In this document: piece by piece, positions 34,614-59,006 of the stretch
How positions within the stretch are numbered: position 1 is the stretch's first letter
Layout of the letters: the number at the start of each line of letters is the position of its first letter
Source: an uncultured Paracoccaceae bacterium
GTDB lineage: Bacteria > Pseudomonadota > Alphaproteobacteria > Rhodobacterales > Rhodobacteraceae
Assembly (NCBI GenBank): GCA_938002605.1
Contig: CALLAF010000030.1
Span: 1 to 64,000 of the forward strand
Reading direction: 5' to 3'
Length of the DNA stretch: 64,000 nt
Made by a program: the position numbers and the translations under genes
Notes under the pieces: model-generated
Databases searched by the model: none
The model's input: only the letters and a program-made list of their open reading frames with translations
Told to the model about the DNA's origin: nothing

Positions 34614-35135
34614 ATGAAAAAGATGCTGTTGCCACTTGTATTGCTCGTGCTCGGAATCGGTGGGGGCGTCGGTGCCGGCGTCTTTCTGAAACCGGAGCCA
34701 GAACCTGAAATCGTGGCGGAAGATCTTGCCGAAGACAACCCTTGCGGTGACATGGCCACTGACACGCACGACGACGCCGATCATGTACCGGCCATCGACT
34801 TAGGTGAAGAACGCGAATACGCAAAGCTCAACAACCAATTTGTTATTCCCGTTGTCGAGGACGGCCTCGTTTCAGCCTTGGTGGTCATGGCGATCAGCCT
34901 AGAAGTGACACCCGATTCAAGCACGGGGGTGCTGGCATCTGAACCCAAGCTGCGCGACGCGTTCTTGCAAGTCATGTTCAACCACGCCAACATTGGTGGG
35001 TTTTCAGGTAACTTCACAACCGGAACCAACATGCGGGCGTTGCGCACCGAACTGTTACGAAATGCGCAGCGGATTTCAGGTAGCAATGTGACCGACGTTT
35101 TGATCACAGATATCGTGCGTCAAGATTCATCGTAA
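34614..35135 (+). CDS. FliL-like flagellar basal-body protein (second copy)
   Basis: A 173-residue single-pass membrane protein of FliL type. The N-terminus MKKMLLPLVLLVLGIGGGVGAGVFL (TM about 4-25) precedes an acidic His/Asp-rich linker and a FliL-like periplasmic domain: NNQFVIPVVEDGLVSALVVMAISLEV, LRDAFLQVMFNHANIGGF, and NVTDVLITDIVRQDSS, the last resembling the FliL C-terminus. AAAGGA lies 6 bases before the ATG. A second gene (43692-44183) is a more conventional FliL, so this is a divergent paralog that may surround the stator or the L/P-ring side. It overlaps the convergent coiled-coil gene by 16 bp. Confidence 0.8.
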   Translation: MKKMLLPLVLLVLGIGGGVGAGVFLKPEPEPEIVAEDLAEDNPCGDMATDTHDDADHVPAIDLGEEREYAKLNNQFVIPVVEDGLVSALVVMAISLEVTPDSSTGVLASEPKLRDAFLQVMFNHANIGGFSGNFTTGTNMRALRTELLRNAQRISGSNVTDVLITDIVRQDSS

Positions 35136-35515
35136 AGGCGCCGCAATTTGCGTGCCTCCTCGGTTTTCGCACGCCGCGCAACAAGCGCTTTCGCGGCCTG
35201 ATCGCGCCCAAACGCCTGCGCAAGTTCGGCCCGGCAATGTTCCTTCAGTGCCATGACCTGAGCCAATTCAGTATTTATGGTTGTACGCAGTTGGTCTACC
35301 CATTGCTGCCACCTGACGGTCGCATCTGCAGCAAACGCCGCATCAATCATGCTGACAGGAATTTGCTTTGGTTTTCCATCATGTGCGGCAAGCTGCGCAA
35401 GATTTTCGCGCAGCCCAGTTTCACGCGCCACAACAGCCGCCATTTTCGCCTGCGCCGCCTGCAACGTGATATCTGTTAACCGCGAAAGCCCCTGCATTTG
35501 CTTGATGTTCCCCAT
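35120..35515 (-). CDS. FliJ-like coiled-coil protein candidate
   Basis: A 131-residue, helical, charged protein with no signal peptide or membrane segment; two long helices are separated near residues 48-58 (GKPKQIPVSMID). Length, coiled-coil build and its place as last gene of flhA-fliR-flhB suggest the FliJ role, i.e. the stalk that links FliI to FlhA. No other fliJ candidate is seen in the cluster. The assignment is by context, not sequence signature. Its start overlaps the flhB stop by one base (TGATG), and its 3' end overlaps the convergent FliL-like gene by 16 bp. Confidence 0.55.
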   Translation of the reverse strand: MGNIKQMQGLSRLTDITLQAAQAKMAAVVARETGLRENLAQLAAHDGKPKQIPVSMIDAAFAADATVRWQQWVDQLRTTINTELAQVMALKEHCRAELAQAFGRDQAAKALVARRAKTEEARKLRRLYDES

Positions 35516-39693: not shown

Positions 39694-41808
39694 CTACGGA
39701 TCGTTTGGTAGTGGAAAGCGATTTAAGATTGCATCAAGAGTTTCACGCGTTTCTTGTGATCGCGAAAGTAACTCCCGACTGCTCGCAAGTGGTGTACCGG
39801 ATTGGGTGTTATCCTCACGGGACAGCATCGCCTCGGAGGCCGCTTGAAGTATTGGGTCTGAGGATGTCGTAAGCTGCTGCCAATTTCCTTGCCCCCAACT
39901 TGCGATTTCGTCCGCGCCTTGGCCTGCCCCCTGACTGTCGTCTAAAACAGTAGGGGGTAGAGGAATTTCAGCGTCAGCTGGAAGTGTTTGCACTGCATCA
40001 TCTGGCGGTACAAATGCAGTTGCGCGAGTTAGGAAACCCAGGGCACTCAGGCGCTCAGAAACCGAGTGCCGGGCGACCGCAGAAAACCTTTCTGGTGGAT
40101 GATCAAACGCGAAAACAAGAAATGTGGCATCGTCTAAAGAACGAACAGCGCGCATTGCGAGTTCATCATTCAATTTTTGCACGCGCTCTGGTCCTAAAAC
40201 GACGCTTTCGTCCATGATCAACTTTGCGGCCTGATCGATTTCACCTTGCATGAAATACGCACGCGCCTGAGCGTAGGCGAGATCCCCAGAAACTGGTAAA
40301 TGCGCGTTTTCAAATCGAAGCGCATCTACGAGCACATAGTCCGATTGTGTGATTTCAGTATTGTTTTCAATGGCGACATTCAAGAATTCAATCATAACCT
40401 TTGGGGTCACGCGCGGATCTTCTCTCGCCACAACAGCGAGCGCGCTTTGCACGCCGGCATCGTCACCCATTGCATGATCCAAAGACGCCTCTGCTAGGGT
40501 AGTATCAAGTGTTTTTGCCACATCATCGCGACTGACATCTAGCGCTTGGAGTGCGCCGTCATGATCCCCAAGTCGGACAAATCGCTCGGAAAGCATTGGA
40601 CCAATATGGCGCTGCAAATGGACGGGCAGCGCCTTGAAACCGCTCAGCGTAGCGGCGCGATTCAGCTGTGCGTCCAGCGGCCCATCACCATTGGCGAGCA
40701 AGGCCCAAAGTGCGACAGGTGACGCACAGCTAACCTGCTCCTCAAAAAGCTCTTTCGCGACAAGATCACCATCGATGATCTGCGCGATTTGAGATAAATA
40801 TATGCGCTCCTGAGAATGAACCCCATCTAACTCCAACGTCCGCAGCGCCTCTTGGCCGAATCCAAAGTACACGTAAGTTTGGGCCAGTCGCAGAACAGCG
40901 GTTTCATCGGCCAGGCCAGCGTCTGTGAATACATCGCGCCGTCCAAGCGCAATTTGCGCCGAAAACGGCAATTCGTTCCCCCAATTGGGCACGTCAAAGT
41001 ATAACGCGGGCAAGCACTGTTTGCCCGTTTGCGTTGCAAGGGTTGGCGGGTCTTCTGGGATTGCGGCGATATCGCGATTTGTACGTGTTCCGATTCCGGG
41101 AACAGCGGCTTGAGCGCCGTGCAATTCTTCGCGAACCGTCGCTTCAATGTCACCTGCATCCGTTCTCACTGGCAGATCTTGTTCCAATACCCCCTGCGAC
41201 AACCCCTCGGCTAGGCTTGCGACTATTGACGTCTCTAGTTCATTCAACTCATCTTCAAATGCTGTTGCACTTCTTTCTGACGCCAGAACCTCCTGCGGCA
41301 AATTTGCTTCAACGTCTTGCACTCGCGGCAACTCAATTTGCGGCACCCCGATCACGGGAAAGATCGCCTGATCGGGGAAAACATAGGGTTGTCCGACTGG
41401 CCGCGCCGCGGTTTCGGACGTGTCCAGACGGCGTTCAAATGGCGAACTTGGCAATGGCGGCCCGTCGGATACATCAATCACGAGAACATCATCGTCCACA
41501 AGAAATGCTTCGGCCCGGCAATCGCAGGGCACAGAAAACTGCAATTCTCCGGCGCGCGGTTGGGTTATTTCCGCGATGCGGTCCTTTGGTATGAGATCGT
41601 AAAACCCTCGCAAATCATAGTCTTTGTCCGAAGGTAATCGTAGTAAATACCCGGCCTCAGCCCGGCCTAAAACCCAATCTGTTCCTGGTGTAATGCGAAA
41701 GACCATCCGCGTGAATTGCGGATGTTCGCCAGTTTGCACATGAATCGGTGCGGCTGCCACGGCCAACGGCAAAATGACCAGAACCAGCGAACAAATGAAA
41801 CGCTTCAT
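39694..41808 (-). CDS. Large periplasmic repeat protein coupled to motA, MotC-like candidate
   Basis: A 704-residue exported protein with no confident family assignment. From the ATG at 41808, which overlaps the motA stop by 4 bp, it has a signal peptide (MKRFICSLVLVILPLAVAAA). Residues about 20-120 look strand-rich (FTRMVFRITPGTDWVLG), with two Cys (PCDCRAE) that could form a disulfide. A Pro/Glu-rich linker follows, then from about 280 to 610 helical hairpins of TPR-like spacing (AQARAYFMQGEIDQAAKLI is the clearest). The tail is low-complexity. In Sinorhizobium, MotC is a periplasmic motility protein and MotE its chaperone; coupling to motA and a MotE-like gene nearby suggest a similar stator role. 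This is inference. Confidence 0.72.
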   Translation of the reverse strand: MKRFICSLVLVILPLAVAAAPIHVQTGEHPQFTRMVFRITPGTDWVLGRAEAGYLLRLPSDKDYDLRGFYDLIPKDRIAEITQPRAGELQFSVPCDCRAEAFLVDDDVLVIDVSDGPPLPSSPFERRLDTSETAARPVGQPYVFPDQAIFPVIGVPQIELPRVQDVEANLPQEVLASERSATAFEDELNELETSIVASLAEGLSQGVLEQDLPVRTDAGDIEATVREELHGAQAAVPGIGTRTNRDIAAIPEDPPTLATQTGKQCLPALYFDVPNWGNELPFSAQIALGRRDVFTDAGLADETAVLRLAQTYVYFGFGQEALRTLELDGVHSQERIYLSQIAQIIDGDLVAKELFEEQVSCASPVALWALLANGDGPLDAQLNRAATLSGFKALPVHLQRHIGPMLSERFVRLGDHDGALQALDVSRDDVAKTLDTTLAEASLDHAMGDDAGVQSALAVVAREDPRVTPKVMIEFLNVAIENNTEITQSDYVLVDALRFENAHLPVSGDLAYAQARAYFMQGEIDQAAKLIMDESVVLGPERVQKLNDELAMRAVRSLDDATFLVFAFDHPPERFSAVARHSVSERLSALGFLTRATAFVPPDDAVQTLPADAEIPLPPTVLDDSQGAGQGADEIASWGQGNWQQLTTSSDPILQAASEAMLSREDNTQSGTPLASSRELLSRSQETRETLDAILNRFPLPNDP

Positions 41809-42674
41809 GCCGCACTTTGCTTTGTCGCCTTCAAAGCATCCTCCATATCCGCGAAACTTGGACGGTAGGCACCTGGCATGTTCTGGCGTCCAACCTCGAT
41901 ACAAATGTTTGGCGCATGCTCATACAGGTTCGCGACCAAGACTTCGCGGATCAATTGATGAAAGTGCGCGTCTTCTTCGATTACCGCTTTTACCTTGACC
42001 GAAAATGGGCCGACCAGACCGTAGGCCAGAAACACCCCCAAAAATGTACCAACTAGCGCACCACCAATGAGTTTCCCAAGCACTTCAGGGGGCTGATCAA
42101 TCGATCCCATCGTCTTAATAACCCCGAGCACCGCGGCCACAATTCCCAATGCGGGCAAGCCATCCGCGACAGTTTGCAGCGCATGTGTCGAATGCATTTT
42201 ATGGTGCAGGGTTGCCTCGATTCTCTTTTCCAAAATTTCTTCGACCTGATGTGGATCATCGTAATTCATCGATGCGGATCGCAAGGTGTCGCAAATCAGC
42301 GCAATGGCTTCGCCGTCATCTAAAATCTTAGGGTACTTACCAAAAATTGTCGACGAATCAGGTGCTTCGATATGGCTTTCAAGTGAAACCGGATTGGTGC
42401 GCGCGACGCGAATGAGTTCAAACAGGAGGCACAAAACATCGCTGTAGTCTTGTGCGTTCCACTTCGGGCCCTTGAACACCTTTCCAATATCTTTGATCGT
42501 GTGTTTGATCGCGGCGCCATCATTACTAATCGTGAAGGCCCCGATTGCCGCGCCACCAATCATGATCATCTCAAATGGCAACGTCTTAAGGATAATCCCC
42601 ATTTTCCCGCCAGCTAAGAGATAGCCGCCGAACACTGTTACAAAAACGAAAACAACACCAATCAAGCCAACCAT
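41805..42674 (-). CDS. motA: Flagellar motor stator protein MotA
   Basis: MotA forms the pentameric stator ring around MotB and converts proton flow into torque. The 289-residue protein has four membrane segments: two near the N-terminus (about 4-22 and 33-50) and two later (about 170-190 and 205-225). LPALGIVAAVLGVIKTMG contains the conserved Pro of TM3 and FLAYGLVGPFSVKVK that of TM4. The cytosolic loop with charged residues (about 60-165) contacts FliG. AAGGGG precedes the ATG at 9 bases. motB is over 9 kb away, unlike the usual motAB pair. Confidence 0.96.
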   Translation of the reverse strand: MVGLIGVVFVFVTVFGGYLLAGGKMGIILKTLPFEMIMIGGAAIGAFTISNDGAAIKHTIKDIGKVFKGPKWNAQDYSDVLCLLFELIRVARTNPVSLESHIEAPDSSTIFGKYPKILDDGEAIALICDTLRSASMNYDDPHQVEEILEKRIEATLHHKMHSTHALQTVADGLPALGIVAAVLGVIKTMGSIDQPPEVLGKLIGGALVGTFLGVFLAYGLVGPFSVKVKAVIEEDAHFHQLIREVLVANLYEHAPNICIEVGRQNMPGAYRPSFADMEDALKATKQSAA

Positions 42675-42755
42675 GTGGGAAGTCCCCTTACTTTAATCTA
42701 CCACCATCGGCATCCGAATCTGTTTTAGCGCAAAGGTGTTAAATAACTCTCAGCG

Positions 42756-43328
42756 CTATTCAGTTGGTACGTTTGCATTCCGTCCAGCAAGAACCACGCT
42801 GAACGAATAAGCAGTTTCAGGTTCCAATTCGGTCATAATAAGAGCCGCCGCATCCGGGCGCATCATTCCCAAAAATCCAGCCGCAAACTGCGGCGACATT
42901 TCGGTAAATAATGCCGCAGCCTCTTTCGGCTTCATGTTTTCATAGACAGAGGTGAGGCGTTCCAGATCAGTCTCGGCAGCACTATCGGCAAGCGCAATAG
43001 TCGCGCGCAGATTTTCTTCCGCGGCAACAAGCGCTTGCATTTTTTCTTCGATCTCGACCTCTGCGACATGCAGCGCCTGGATACGGTTTTGCAATTGCGT
43101 TTCGCGCTCGTCCAGCCTTGCTTCGCGCGCTTGCAGCGCCGCCAATAGTGATCCGGTGTCCGCGTGATGTCGTGATGTTTCCACCACGTGATCGCGCTGT
43201 TCTTCTTCACTATCGGCCAATGCGGGTCCTGCAAAAACACTCATGCGGACAACTGCAGACGCGATCAACATGCCCGATATGATGTGGAGCGCGCCTCTGC
43301 CACCGCGCTGTTTTGGTGCCCGCCTCAT
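42756..43328 (-). CDS. MotE-like periplasmic/MgtE-N family protein
   Basis: A 190-residue protein with an N-terminal signal or anchor segment (about 16-38), a long Glu/Arg/Gln-rich coiled coil (about 60-115), and a C-terminal MgtE-N-like helical domain: VYENMKPKEAAALFTEMSPQ then MRPDAAALIMTEL. This is the layout of the MotE family, whose Sinorhizobium member is a periplasmic chaperone of MotC. Its start overlaps the stop of the upstream coiled-coil gene by 4 bp. motA follows after 81 bp. MotE-like function is inferred from domain order and setting. Confidence 0.82.
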   Translation of the reverse strand: MRRAPKQRGGRGALHIISGMLIASAVVRMSVFAGPALADSEEEQRDHVVETSRHHADTGSLLAALQAREARLDERETQLQNRIQALHVAEVEIEEKMQALVAAEENLRATIALADSAAETDLERLTSVYENMKPKEAAALFTEMSPQFAAGFLGMMRPDAAALIMTELEPETAYSFSVVLAGRNANVPTE

Positions 43329-43681
43329 TGATTGCCCTCAGGTCCAGCGGGCCGACGGACAAAGAACGGGCTTTCTGCTTGCTTGGGCGCCGCAGGTTCG
43401 GGCAAATCGTGCAAGGAGGCAACAAGCAGTTCCAACCGTTGCCCCGCCGCTTCCGCACGGGTGCTCACACTATCAAGCGTATCCACAGAGGATTTGGCAG
43501 TCCTTTGCGCCTGCGTGAGGGTCTTTGTCAGATCATCAACCTGCACAGATAAAACGGCAACAGCCCCACCGACACCTTTTTCAAGGTCGGTAAAACGGCG
43601 CAAACGGCGCGACAGAACATAACAGTAAAACCCTGCTGCCAAAGCCCCAGAAATCAGCAAAACATCCGCAATCATCGTCAT
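43325..43681 (-). CDS. Small single-pass membrane coiled-coil protein in fliL-motE operon
   Basis: A 118-residue protein with one membrane segment (about 5-24), a basic stop-transfer (SRRLRRF), a heptad-like helical stretch (about 35-90, VLSVQVDDLTKTLTQAQRT) and a Pro-rich tail. Small proteins of this build stand between fliL and motE in other alphaproteobacterial flagellar clusters (possibly the DUF6468 group, not verified). Its role is unknown. AAGGGG precedes the ATG. It is 10 bp after fliL and overlaps the MotE-like gene by 4 bp. Confidence 0.72.
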   Translation of the reverse strand: MTMIADVLLISGALAAGFYCYVLSRRLRRFTDLEKGVGGAVAVLSVQVDDLTKTLTQAQRTAKSSVDTLDSVSTRAEAAGQRLELLVASLHDLPEPAAPKQAESPFFVRRPAGPEGNQ

Positions 43682-43691
43682 CTCGGTCCCC

Positions 43692-44183
43692 TTAGCTTAA
43701 CACAAATTCCATGATCAAAAGGTCACGCACGCGGCCTTCACCGGTCACGATTTGAACGCGGCGCAGCATCTGCCCGCGCAGCCGCGTCAAAGCGGCTGGA
43801 TCTTCAAGGTCCGCAAGATCAACGGCACGCAGATATCCGTTCAGGACATCGACGATCCGCGGCGTAATCGCCGCGACCTCATCAGCATATTCCGGTGCAA
43901 CTTCAAGCTGGGCGGAAAAACGGAGATGGTCGCGCCCACCAGATCGCGGCAAGGAAATGACCAAAGGGTCAAGCGCAACAAATGTTACGACCTCAGGTTT
44001 CGGGGCGTGCGAATCATCTTGTGTCGCTACTTCTTCGACATGTTCGCCCCCTCCGAGCATGCCCGACTGTACGGCAAAAAAACCGCCGCCGGCCCCCAGT
44101 AATGCAAGCACAATTCCAATAAGGAGCGGCTTCTTGGACCCTTTCGCCGGGGTGTCTTCTGGGGTGTCCGATTCTTCTGACAT
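43692..44183 (-). CDS. fliL: Flagellar basal body-associated protein FliL
   Basis: FliL surrounds or supports the stator at the inner membrane. The 163-residue protein starts at ATG 44183 with AAGGA 7 bases upstream; the track's start 12 codons earlier would run into the divergent promoter. A cytosolic Asp/Glu/Lys-rich N-terminus precedes one membrane segment (PLLIGIVLALLGAGGGFFAV, about 19-38). The periplasmic domain has FVALDPLVISLPR and ends LRGQMLRRVQIVTGEGRVRDLLIMEFVLS, a clear FliL C-terminus. It leads the operon fliL - small coiled-coil gene - MotE-like, and is divergent from fliF. Confidence 0.93.
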   Translation of the reverse strand: MSEESDTPEDTPAKGSKKPLLIGIVLALLGAGGGFFAVQSGMLGGGEHVEEVATQDDSHAPKPEVVTFVALDPLVISLPRSGGRDHLRFSAQLEVAPEYADEVAAITPRIVDVLNGYLRAVDLADLEDPAALTRLRGQMLRRVQIVTGEGRVRDLLIMEFVLS

Positions 44184-44232
44184 CACGCCGTCCTTTTTGT
44201 TCTGCGATGAAATATGCATAAACTGAGAAGCC

Positions 44233-44247
44233 CTAACCGATTGTTAA
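44233..44247. promoter_or_regulatory. CtrA-like site between fliL and fliF
   Basis: CTAAC-CGATT-GTTAA matches 9 of 10 positions of TTAAC-N5-GTTAA. It lies 50 bases before the fliL start and 33 before the chosen fliF start, suitable for control of both divergent operons. Its location also argues against the longer fliF start in the ORF track. Confidence 0.6.
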
Positions 44248-52499: not shown

Positions 52500-53318
52500 T
52501 CAAATATCCGAGCGTAGCAAAATGATTTCGATCCGGTTATTGCGCAGCGCGGTTGCATCCGCGACCGCGGGCGCGCGGTCGCCCGCCCCTGTCAACCGCG
52601 CGATGCGCCGTGGATCTAGGCCCCCGGCCTCTAGCATGAGCCGCATCTGGGCGGCCCGTCCGCTTGACAGTTCCCAAATCGGATTATCCACAGCAAGAAC
52701 CGTTGTCGCACGCAGATGCCCTTTGATGACGACAGGGTTTTGCACCACATCGAACAATCGCGCCAATATTACCGCTATTTCAGCTGTTATTGGATGCGGA
52801 GTAGTGGTGCCTGGCAGGTCAAATATTTCGATGATCAGCCCTTCATCCGTGAGCCGGGTCACGATATGACGCAGCGCTTGGTCGGACACCATGCTTTCTC
52901 CGCCGGCCCCCATGAGGACCGCCTCGATATCGCGCAGCGCAGCGACCTGTGCCGCCACAGCTGCTGCTTCACCTGCAGTTGCCTCTTCGACGCGGACGGG
53001 GTTTTGCCCAATCGTCGGCTGGCTGATGCCCGTCCCGCTTTGGGCAAGCGAATCTTCAGTAAAGATGTCCGCGCCGCCAAATGCGCCAGAACCACCCCCA
53101 GAAATCCGGTTAATCGGAATCGTCGGTGAAAAATAATCAGCAATCCCTTTGCGTTGTTGTTCGGTCGTCGCGTTCAACAGCCACATCAGCATAAAGAAGG
53201 CCATCATTGCCGTTACAAAATCGGCATAGGCCACTTTCCATGCCCCGCCATGGTGCCCACCACCGCCAACAACTTTTTTACGTTTAATAATCACCGGAGC
53301 ATTGGAATTTGCGCCCAT
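52500..53318 (-). CDS. motB: Flagellar motor stator protein MotB
   Basis: MotB anchors the stator to peptidoglycan and carries the proton-binding Asp. The 272-residue protein has a cytosolic basic N-terminus with a Gly/His stretch (VVGGGGHHGGAWK), then one membrane segment VAYADFVTAMMAFFMLMWLL in which Asp33 is the expected proton carrier. YFSPTIPINRISGGG is the plug/linker region. The C-terminal OmpA-like domain (about 145-270) is recognisable by VVIKGHLRATT, WELSSGRAAQMRLML and RNNRIEIILL, though it departs from the standard GHTD motif. It is 92 bp upstream of flgE, far from motA. Confidence 0.95.
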   Translation of the reverse strand: MGANSNAPVIIKRKKVVGGGGHHGGAWKVAYADFVTAMMAFFMLMWLLNATTEQQRKGIADYFSPTIPINRISGGGSGAFGGADIFTEDSLAQSGTGISQPTIGQNPVRVEEATAGEAAAVAAQVAALRDIEAVLMGAGGESMVSDQALRHIVTRLTDEGLIIEIFDLPGTTTPHPITAEIAVILARLFDVVQNPVVIKGHLRATTVLAVDNPIWELSSGRAAQMRLMLEAGGLDPRRIARLTGAGDRAPAVADATALRNNRIEIILLRSDI

Positions 53319-58242: not shown

Positions 58243-58316
58243 AGTCACACAAACACTTGCGTCGCAGGGGCATTTGATGCTTGGATTGCACAGTCCATTT
58301 GTGCAGGGCAAGCATC

Positions 58317-59006
58317 ATGACAGACCTATCAACCGACTCCCAAACTTCGGCTCAACGCCTGCATAATAGTCCCGACTGGCTGTATCTTCTGCGTGAGATT
58401 GACGCGCTTTATCGGTTTGGCTCGGACGGCGGTAGTGGCCCTATTCGGAGCCACCGGAAACGTGTCCGCGATCGGCTTTCGGCGGCGATGACGCAGAACC
58501 CTGAATTACGCCACCGCTCTGCGTTAACAAAACCGGTAACGGCCCATTTCCCGCGCGCGTTGGATTTAGGGGAACGCAGCACGATGCAGGGGATTGCCCG
58601 CGCGCTGCGAGAAGTCAAAGACGCGCTGACGTGGGAATACGGATACGAAAAAGTCACAAAATCCCTGAGCCAAAAATACGCATACTGCGAAATTCTTGGC
58701 CCCCAAGGACCTGTGCAATGCGATACGCTTATTTTGGGGTTTGTCCTATTCGTGCCCAACACAACCTACCCGCAGCACAGCCACCAAGACATTGAAGAAA
58801 GCTATGTTTCGGTGGCTGGCGCGTGGTCTGAAAACAACAATGCGGTCTATGCGCCGGGGTCGCTCATTTACAATCGCGCGGGCGACGAACACCGCATTAC
58901 GACAGGCGACCGCGATCCATGCCTGTTGGCTTATGCTTGGGTTGGTCCAGCGGAACGGCTGGCATCGCCTCAGATGAAGCTCAGTTCACCACGCAAGACA
59001 AAATAG
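58317..59006 (+). CDS. dddL: Dimethylsulfoniopropionate lyase DddL
   Basis: DddL cleaves DMSP into dimethyl sulfide and acrylate. The 229-residue protein has the C-terminal cupin of this family: YPQHSHQDIEESYVSVAGAW gives candidate metal ligands His154, His156, Glu160/161 and Tyr163, and NRAGDEHRITTGDRDP supplies His192. The N-terminal helical half (SGPIRSHRKRVRDRL, LTWEYGYEKV, KYAYCEILGP) is also DddL-like. The ATG at 58317 gives MTDLSTDSQ; the TTG track start is not needed. It stands alone on the plus strand, 74 bp after the stator-like B gene, with no acrylate-metabolism genes beside it. DddL versus DddQ/W rests on length and the N-terminal half. Confidence 0.87.
   Translation: MTDLSTDSQTSAQRLHNSPDWLYLLREIDALYRFGSDGGSGPIRSHRKRVRDRLSAAMTQNPELRHRSALTKPVTAHFPRALDLGERSTMQGIARALREVKDALTWEYGYEKVTKSLSQKYAYCEILGPQGPVQCDTLILGFVLFVPNTTYPQHSHQDIEESYVSVAGAWSENNNAVYAPGSLIYNRAGDEHRITTGDRDPCLLAYAWVGPAERLASPQMKLSSPRKTK

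Follow-up and report, generated by a model that had tools for sequence, protein, structure and literature searches.

The window (the whole 64,000-nucleotide stretch of DNA analysed here) carried a flagellar gene cluster containing an operon with the order fliL-pflI-motE-motA-motK, motK being the last gene and fliF lying divergent from fliL (Table 1). The cluster also encompassed flhA, fliR, flhB, fliI, flgBCFGAH, fliE, fliN and fliP, together with flgI, flgL, flgK, flgE, flgD, a fliK, a flagellin gene and motB, whose product probably partners MotK and MotE. The start of motK overlapped the stop of motA by 4 bp (ATGA), and motE was located upstream of motA, across a gap of 81 bp. The original prediction had described a 704-residue exported protein with this overlap and a MotE-type gene at this distance; the three ORFs lay where it had placed them, but it had omitted the pflI-like gene and fliL, which belong to the same operon. 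The pflI-like gene had no family match in profile searches and was named by its position, the gene order being that of PMC10954123. The annotated start of fliL is probably about 10 codons too early.

Table 1. Positions of flagellar and neighbouring features in the window
Feature	Position	Strand	Remarks
motK	39694..41808	(-)	704-aa Sec-exported protein
motA	41805..42674	(-)	TIGR03818 above cut-off
motE (FlgY/COG3334-type)	42756..43328	(-)	signal segment, coiled coil, MgtE_N-like C-terminus
pflI-like small membrane protein	43325..43681	(-)	operon gene 2; named by position
fliL	43692..44219	(-)	operon gene 1
CtrA-like box TTAACAATCGGTTAG	44233..44247	(-)	divergent fliL/fliF region
motB	52500..53318	(-)	same flagellar cluster; MotB_plug E=1e-19
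second FliL-family gene	34614..35135		Pfam FliL E=3.9e-6
131-aa ORF	35120..35515		no family
DMSP lyase gene	58281..59006		Pfam DMSP_lyase E=6.5e-49

Three further genes were recorded around the operon. The second FliL-family gene followed flgH and was retained in most Rhodobacterales loci, the 131-aa ORF followed flhB at a conserved position and is possibly a FliJ counterpart, and the DMSP lyase gene was found a little downstream of the flagellar cluster.

The MotK protein began with a signal peptide (MKRFICSLVLVILPLAVAAA, read from the sequence), from which a periplasmic location is predicted. In the AlphaFold2 model (39 relatives, mean pLDDT of 79.7), an AMIN-like domain (about residues 22-118) preceded a low-confidence linker (about 131-180 and 205-251, interrupted by a conserved helix at about 181-204), a TPR superhelix (about 268-598), a second low-confidence linker (about 605-629) and a conserved C-terminal helix (673-697, window positions 39718-39792). 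The strand-rich N-terminus and TPR-like repeats initially proposed were borne out by eight beta-strands (residues 22-115) and by paired helices (268-598) in the models. Pfam detected the TPRs weakly (TPR_6 below its cut-off, E=0.008), but the repeat architecture was clear in the model. A Pfam AMIN-like match was obtained in 2 of the 39 relatives. Foldseek aligned the model with the AMIN domain of Escherichia coli AmiC (4bin) over 113 columns (prob 1.00, E=0.021). AMIN-bearing FliO proteins exist (PMC12403147); a FliO identity was rejected, many Rhodobacterales being devoid of FliO (PMC12403147) and MotK having no FliO-like membrane segment. Four cysteines (95, 97, 265 and 361), two tryptophans (276 and 368) and an FG.EA motif at 317-321 were invariant in 78 near-complete MotK sequences and, since the protein is exported, these cysteines likely form disulfides.

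Relatives were collected in one scan, in which 80 named loci were listed of 106 relatives, nearly all labelled Rhodobacterales. An open reading frame for motK, flanked by the genes seen here, was present in at least 80 named genomes and 15 congeners; motK is therefore a real gene. Among the matches listed, the closest named relative belonged to Yoonia sp. I 8.24 (83%), a genus classified in Paracoccaceae. Genes motA and motK occurred together in 79 of the 80 named loci listed, the remaining locus starting inside motK, and the ATGA at the motA stop was found in 62 of these 79, as in the window. The own genome yielded a single match to the MotK profile. Of 77 Rhodobacterales loci, 73 had a CtrA-like box with at most one mismatch in the fliL/fliF intergenic region, compared with 7% in shuffled sequence. 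The box of the window corresponded to the TTAA-N7-TTAA consensus with one mismatch, with the same letters in many relatives, and the exact pattern had no match.

All these features pointed to MotK of a fla2-type (CtrA-controlled) flagellum, an identity to which we assign a probability of about 0.93. In Cereibacter sphaeroides, the fla2 operon reads fliL2-pflI-motE-motA2-motK, with CtrA-type control reported for fla2, and MotK (RSWS8N_12065, UniProt Q3IY86) is a periplasmic protein of 652 aa with an AMIN-like N-terminus (eight strands in residues 23-119) and TPR-like helices (260-535) (PMC10954123). The window protein resembled it in operon position, signal peptide, eight-strand AMIN-like N-terminus, disordered linkers, helical TPR region and length (652 versus 704 aa), and the two clusters shared MotE, fla2-type MotA/MotB and a CtrA-type control site. 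It differed in being about 50 residues longer. The identification rested on operon, architecture and relatives from the same family (e.g., Gemmobacter nectariphilus), in place of a direct alignment with the C. sphaeroides protein. The arrangement of the operon is conserved in Paracoccaceae, and homologues were named in Roseobacteraceae (PMC10954123). The protein first suggested to be an unrecognised counterpart or a new stator factor is thus neither, but an ordinary orthologue of the MotK described in 2024 (PMC10954123), whose identity was already known; the rest of that suggestion was upheld, the protein being the Rhodobacterales counterpart, a partner of the MotE/MotB stators that lies in the periplasm and is comparable to MotC in function. 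What the present analysis adds concerns the breadth of the family, the cysteines that never vary in MotK and a MotE devoid of cysteine.

Losses among related genomes were concerted. MotK, MotE and a fla2-type FliF were all present in 16 of 25 Yoonia-like genomes and all absent from the other nine, MotK never being retained without MotE and FliF. This joint loss, along with distant relatives from other families that adjoin motE too (27 of 35, see below), makes it very improbable that the protein serves outer-membrane assembly or peptidoglycan housekeeping as an envelope TPR/AMIN protein sharing the operon by chance, even though AMIN and TPR are common modules and the top Foldseek matches to the model were mostly unrelated TPR proteins. 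One of the nine genomes (G016) carried a much more distant FliF (contig C1, ~2261842-2263302), with neither MotE nor MotK; this diverged FliF may belong to a second flagellar or secretion type.

Mutants of C. sphaeroides in motK or motE build flagella that do not turn; MotK, MotE and MotB2 bind one another, and the localisation of MotK at the pole depends on MotA2/MotB2 (PMC10954123). By analogy, the window protein would behave in the same way. Once exported to the periplasm, MotK would hold peptidoglycan through its AMIN-like N-terminal domain, and the TPR superhelix may form a radial arm of spoke-like geometry that would bind dimeric MotE (FlgY-type E-ring) as well as MotB on its periplasmic side. 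In this way MotA/MotB units would be brought to the motor, kept there or opened, and a flagellum lacking MotK would be assembled without rotating. The proposed chaperoning by MotE may run in the reverse direction here: in C. sphaeroides, MotE becomes unstable when MotK is missing, whereas MotK remains stable in the absence of MotE (PMC10954123).

MotK was also compared with Sinorhizobium-type MotC. Both proteins are exported and periplasmic, are linked to similar partners (MotE and MotB) and have helical repeats, then a linker, then a short helix at the C-terminus, and a 2026 review considers them distant homologues by structure (PMC13023049). MotC is nevertheless shorter (about 400 aa), devoid of an AMIN domain and encoded in motB-motC-fliK rather than behind motA. 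HMM searches between MotK and MotC gave no match in either direction and hhalign probabilities were 0.2, 1.0 and 1.2%, in line with the lack of obvious sequence similarity noted originally. The window protein is therefore unlikely to be a long, diverged MotC with an extra N-terminal domain, and a MotC identity for MotK was rejected on the lack of significant HMM and hhalign matches and the different gene order. The MotC profile was built from only five sequences (four from Phyllobacterium plasmids, one from another genome), in all of which MotC came after motB and before fliK. It had a single match in 385 alphaproteobacterial genomes and none in the own genome or in 115 alphaproteobacterial genomes; as the profile is narrow, such absence means little, and mutual exclusion of MotK and MotC is not claimed from it. 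In the other direction, the MotK profile had no match on the four Phyllobacterium flagellar plasmids, which are not whole genomes.

In other families of Alphaproteobacteria, the profile built from 81 Rhodobacterales MotK proteins matched about 20 long ORFs adjacent to motE, of roughly 920-1360 aa each, with E-values from 1e-33 to 1e-7 for most and some scores carrying a large composition bias. It found nothing significant in motB-centred loci lacking motE. When 115 whole genomes were searched, 38 from outside the family of the window had a match; 35 of the 38 also had a motE match, and in 27 of these 35 the best MotK match was located within 10 kb of motE. A few weak matches elsewhere were to shorter ORFs, covered the N-terminus only and are probably other AMIN proteins. 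In profile-profile comparison with 13 long proteins, MotK matched across 401 columns in its TPR region with a probability of 99.8% (E = 5e-29); a separate N-terminal match reached 96.3% (E = 1.7e-9). Many long members had two N-terminal matches to the AMIN region of MotK. On the basis of these matches, MotK looks like the compact version of a motor family that extends across the class. The existence of such an AMIN-TPR family, recognisable by sequence in most flagellated Alphaproteobacteria and encoded beside motE and often near fliP, with longer members often bearing two AMIN-like domains, is well supported.

Two members of this size class, Dshi_3259 of Dinoroseobacter shibae and CC_2058 (FssB) of Caulobacter, had been named as MotK homologues; the Caulobacter CC_2058 mutant is non-motile, and BLAST returned no sequence similarity between CC_2058 and MotK (PMC10954123). 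Like the window MotK, both have an AMIN-like N-terminus and a gene beside motE. Our sequence comparison used other alphaproteobacterial relatives of their size class and position in place of these two. As judged from these profiles, the family extends much more widely in Alphaproteobacteria than PMC10954123 reported, and the recovery of Caulobacter-type relatives within the class provides conserved residues to mutate. Neither Pfam nor NCBIfam contains a MotK model and at least one RefSeq plasmid labels MotE and MotK genes as hypothetical; the present profile would name them. Such is the plasmid of Paroceanicella profunda (NZ_CP040822.1), which carries the same operon with its motE and motK positions annotated as hypothetical.

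The long AMIN-TPR relatives also gave a weak match to MotC, which extended over 145 columns (probability 44%) and had a score of 43.7, with none of 60 column shuffles exceeding 23.6; this match could be generic TPR similarity, the comparison having been made without an unrelated TPR family as control. It hints, and only hints, that MotC is a remnant of the long family. The complete scenario, in which MotK is the compact end of a motE-linked AMIN-TPR spoke family across most flagellated Alphaproteobacteria and MotC its AMIN-less, relocated rhizobial remnant, is a tentative one that we favour somewhat less than not. MotK, MotC and the long relatives appeared to end alike, with a linker and then a short, conserved helix at the C-terminus (SRELLxxSxxTRxxLxxLL in MotK, DETRKKLDAIDALL in MotC), which is possibly a common docking piece.

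Beyond Alphaproteobacteria, the best analogue of MotK at the level of the fold is PflA, a periplasmic scaffold spoke of the Campylobacter jejuni proximal disk. The sole bacterial flagellar match obtained with Foldseek was chain K of 9hmf (C. jejuni motor scaffold), which covered the whole of MotK, with about 800 columns aligned and E-values of 1.4e-3 and 8.8e-4; these E-values were modest, TM-scores were of 0.14-0.2 with a very large rmsd, and generic TPR proteins scored equally. The large rmsd reflects the flexibility of the superhelix and linker and, together with the very low TM-score, implies that the match supports the architecture and not the fine structure. Chain K is presumably mature PflA, given a length of 773 (PflA from residue 16 onward) and the description in the paper. 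PflA and MotK share an N-terminal beta-sandwich (AMIN), an unstructured linker and a TPR superhelix, and would share a stator-holding role with FlgY. A search of PDB sequences recovered no MotK homologue, and the profile of MotK relatives matched no PflA chain there, so that no sequence similarity between the two was detected in that search; a PflB counterpart was not seen in the window cluster. MotK, MotC and CC_2058 had already been grouped with PflA on structural grounds (PMC13023049, PMC11870540), and the Campylobacter motor preprint treats PflA homologues as unconserved in sequence (PMC11870540).

The MotE protein of the window displayed the features of MotE/FlgY proteins (signal segment, coiled coil and MgtE_N-like end), with a Pfam MgtE_N match just at the gathering score (E=1.4e-5) and a match to the NCBIfam FlbB collar model below the model cut-off (E=4.7e-7). 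For both C. sphaeroides and S. meliloti, the MotE dimer is reported to depend on a disulfide for its stability, and the C. sphaeroides C20A variant was undetectable. In contrast to the C. sphaeroides protein and its stabilising cysteine, the window MotE (42756-43328) contained no cysteine, so that this disulfide cannot form. The same was true of 42 of 81 Rhodobacterales MotE proteins; cysteine is thus not defining for the MotE family and, with about half of the Rhodobacterales proteins devoid of it, the generality of the stabilising disulfide is in question.
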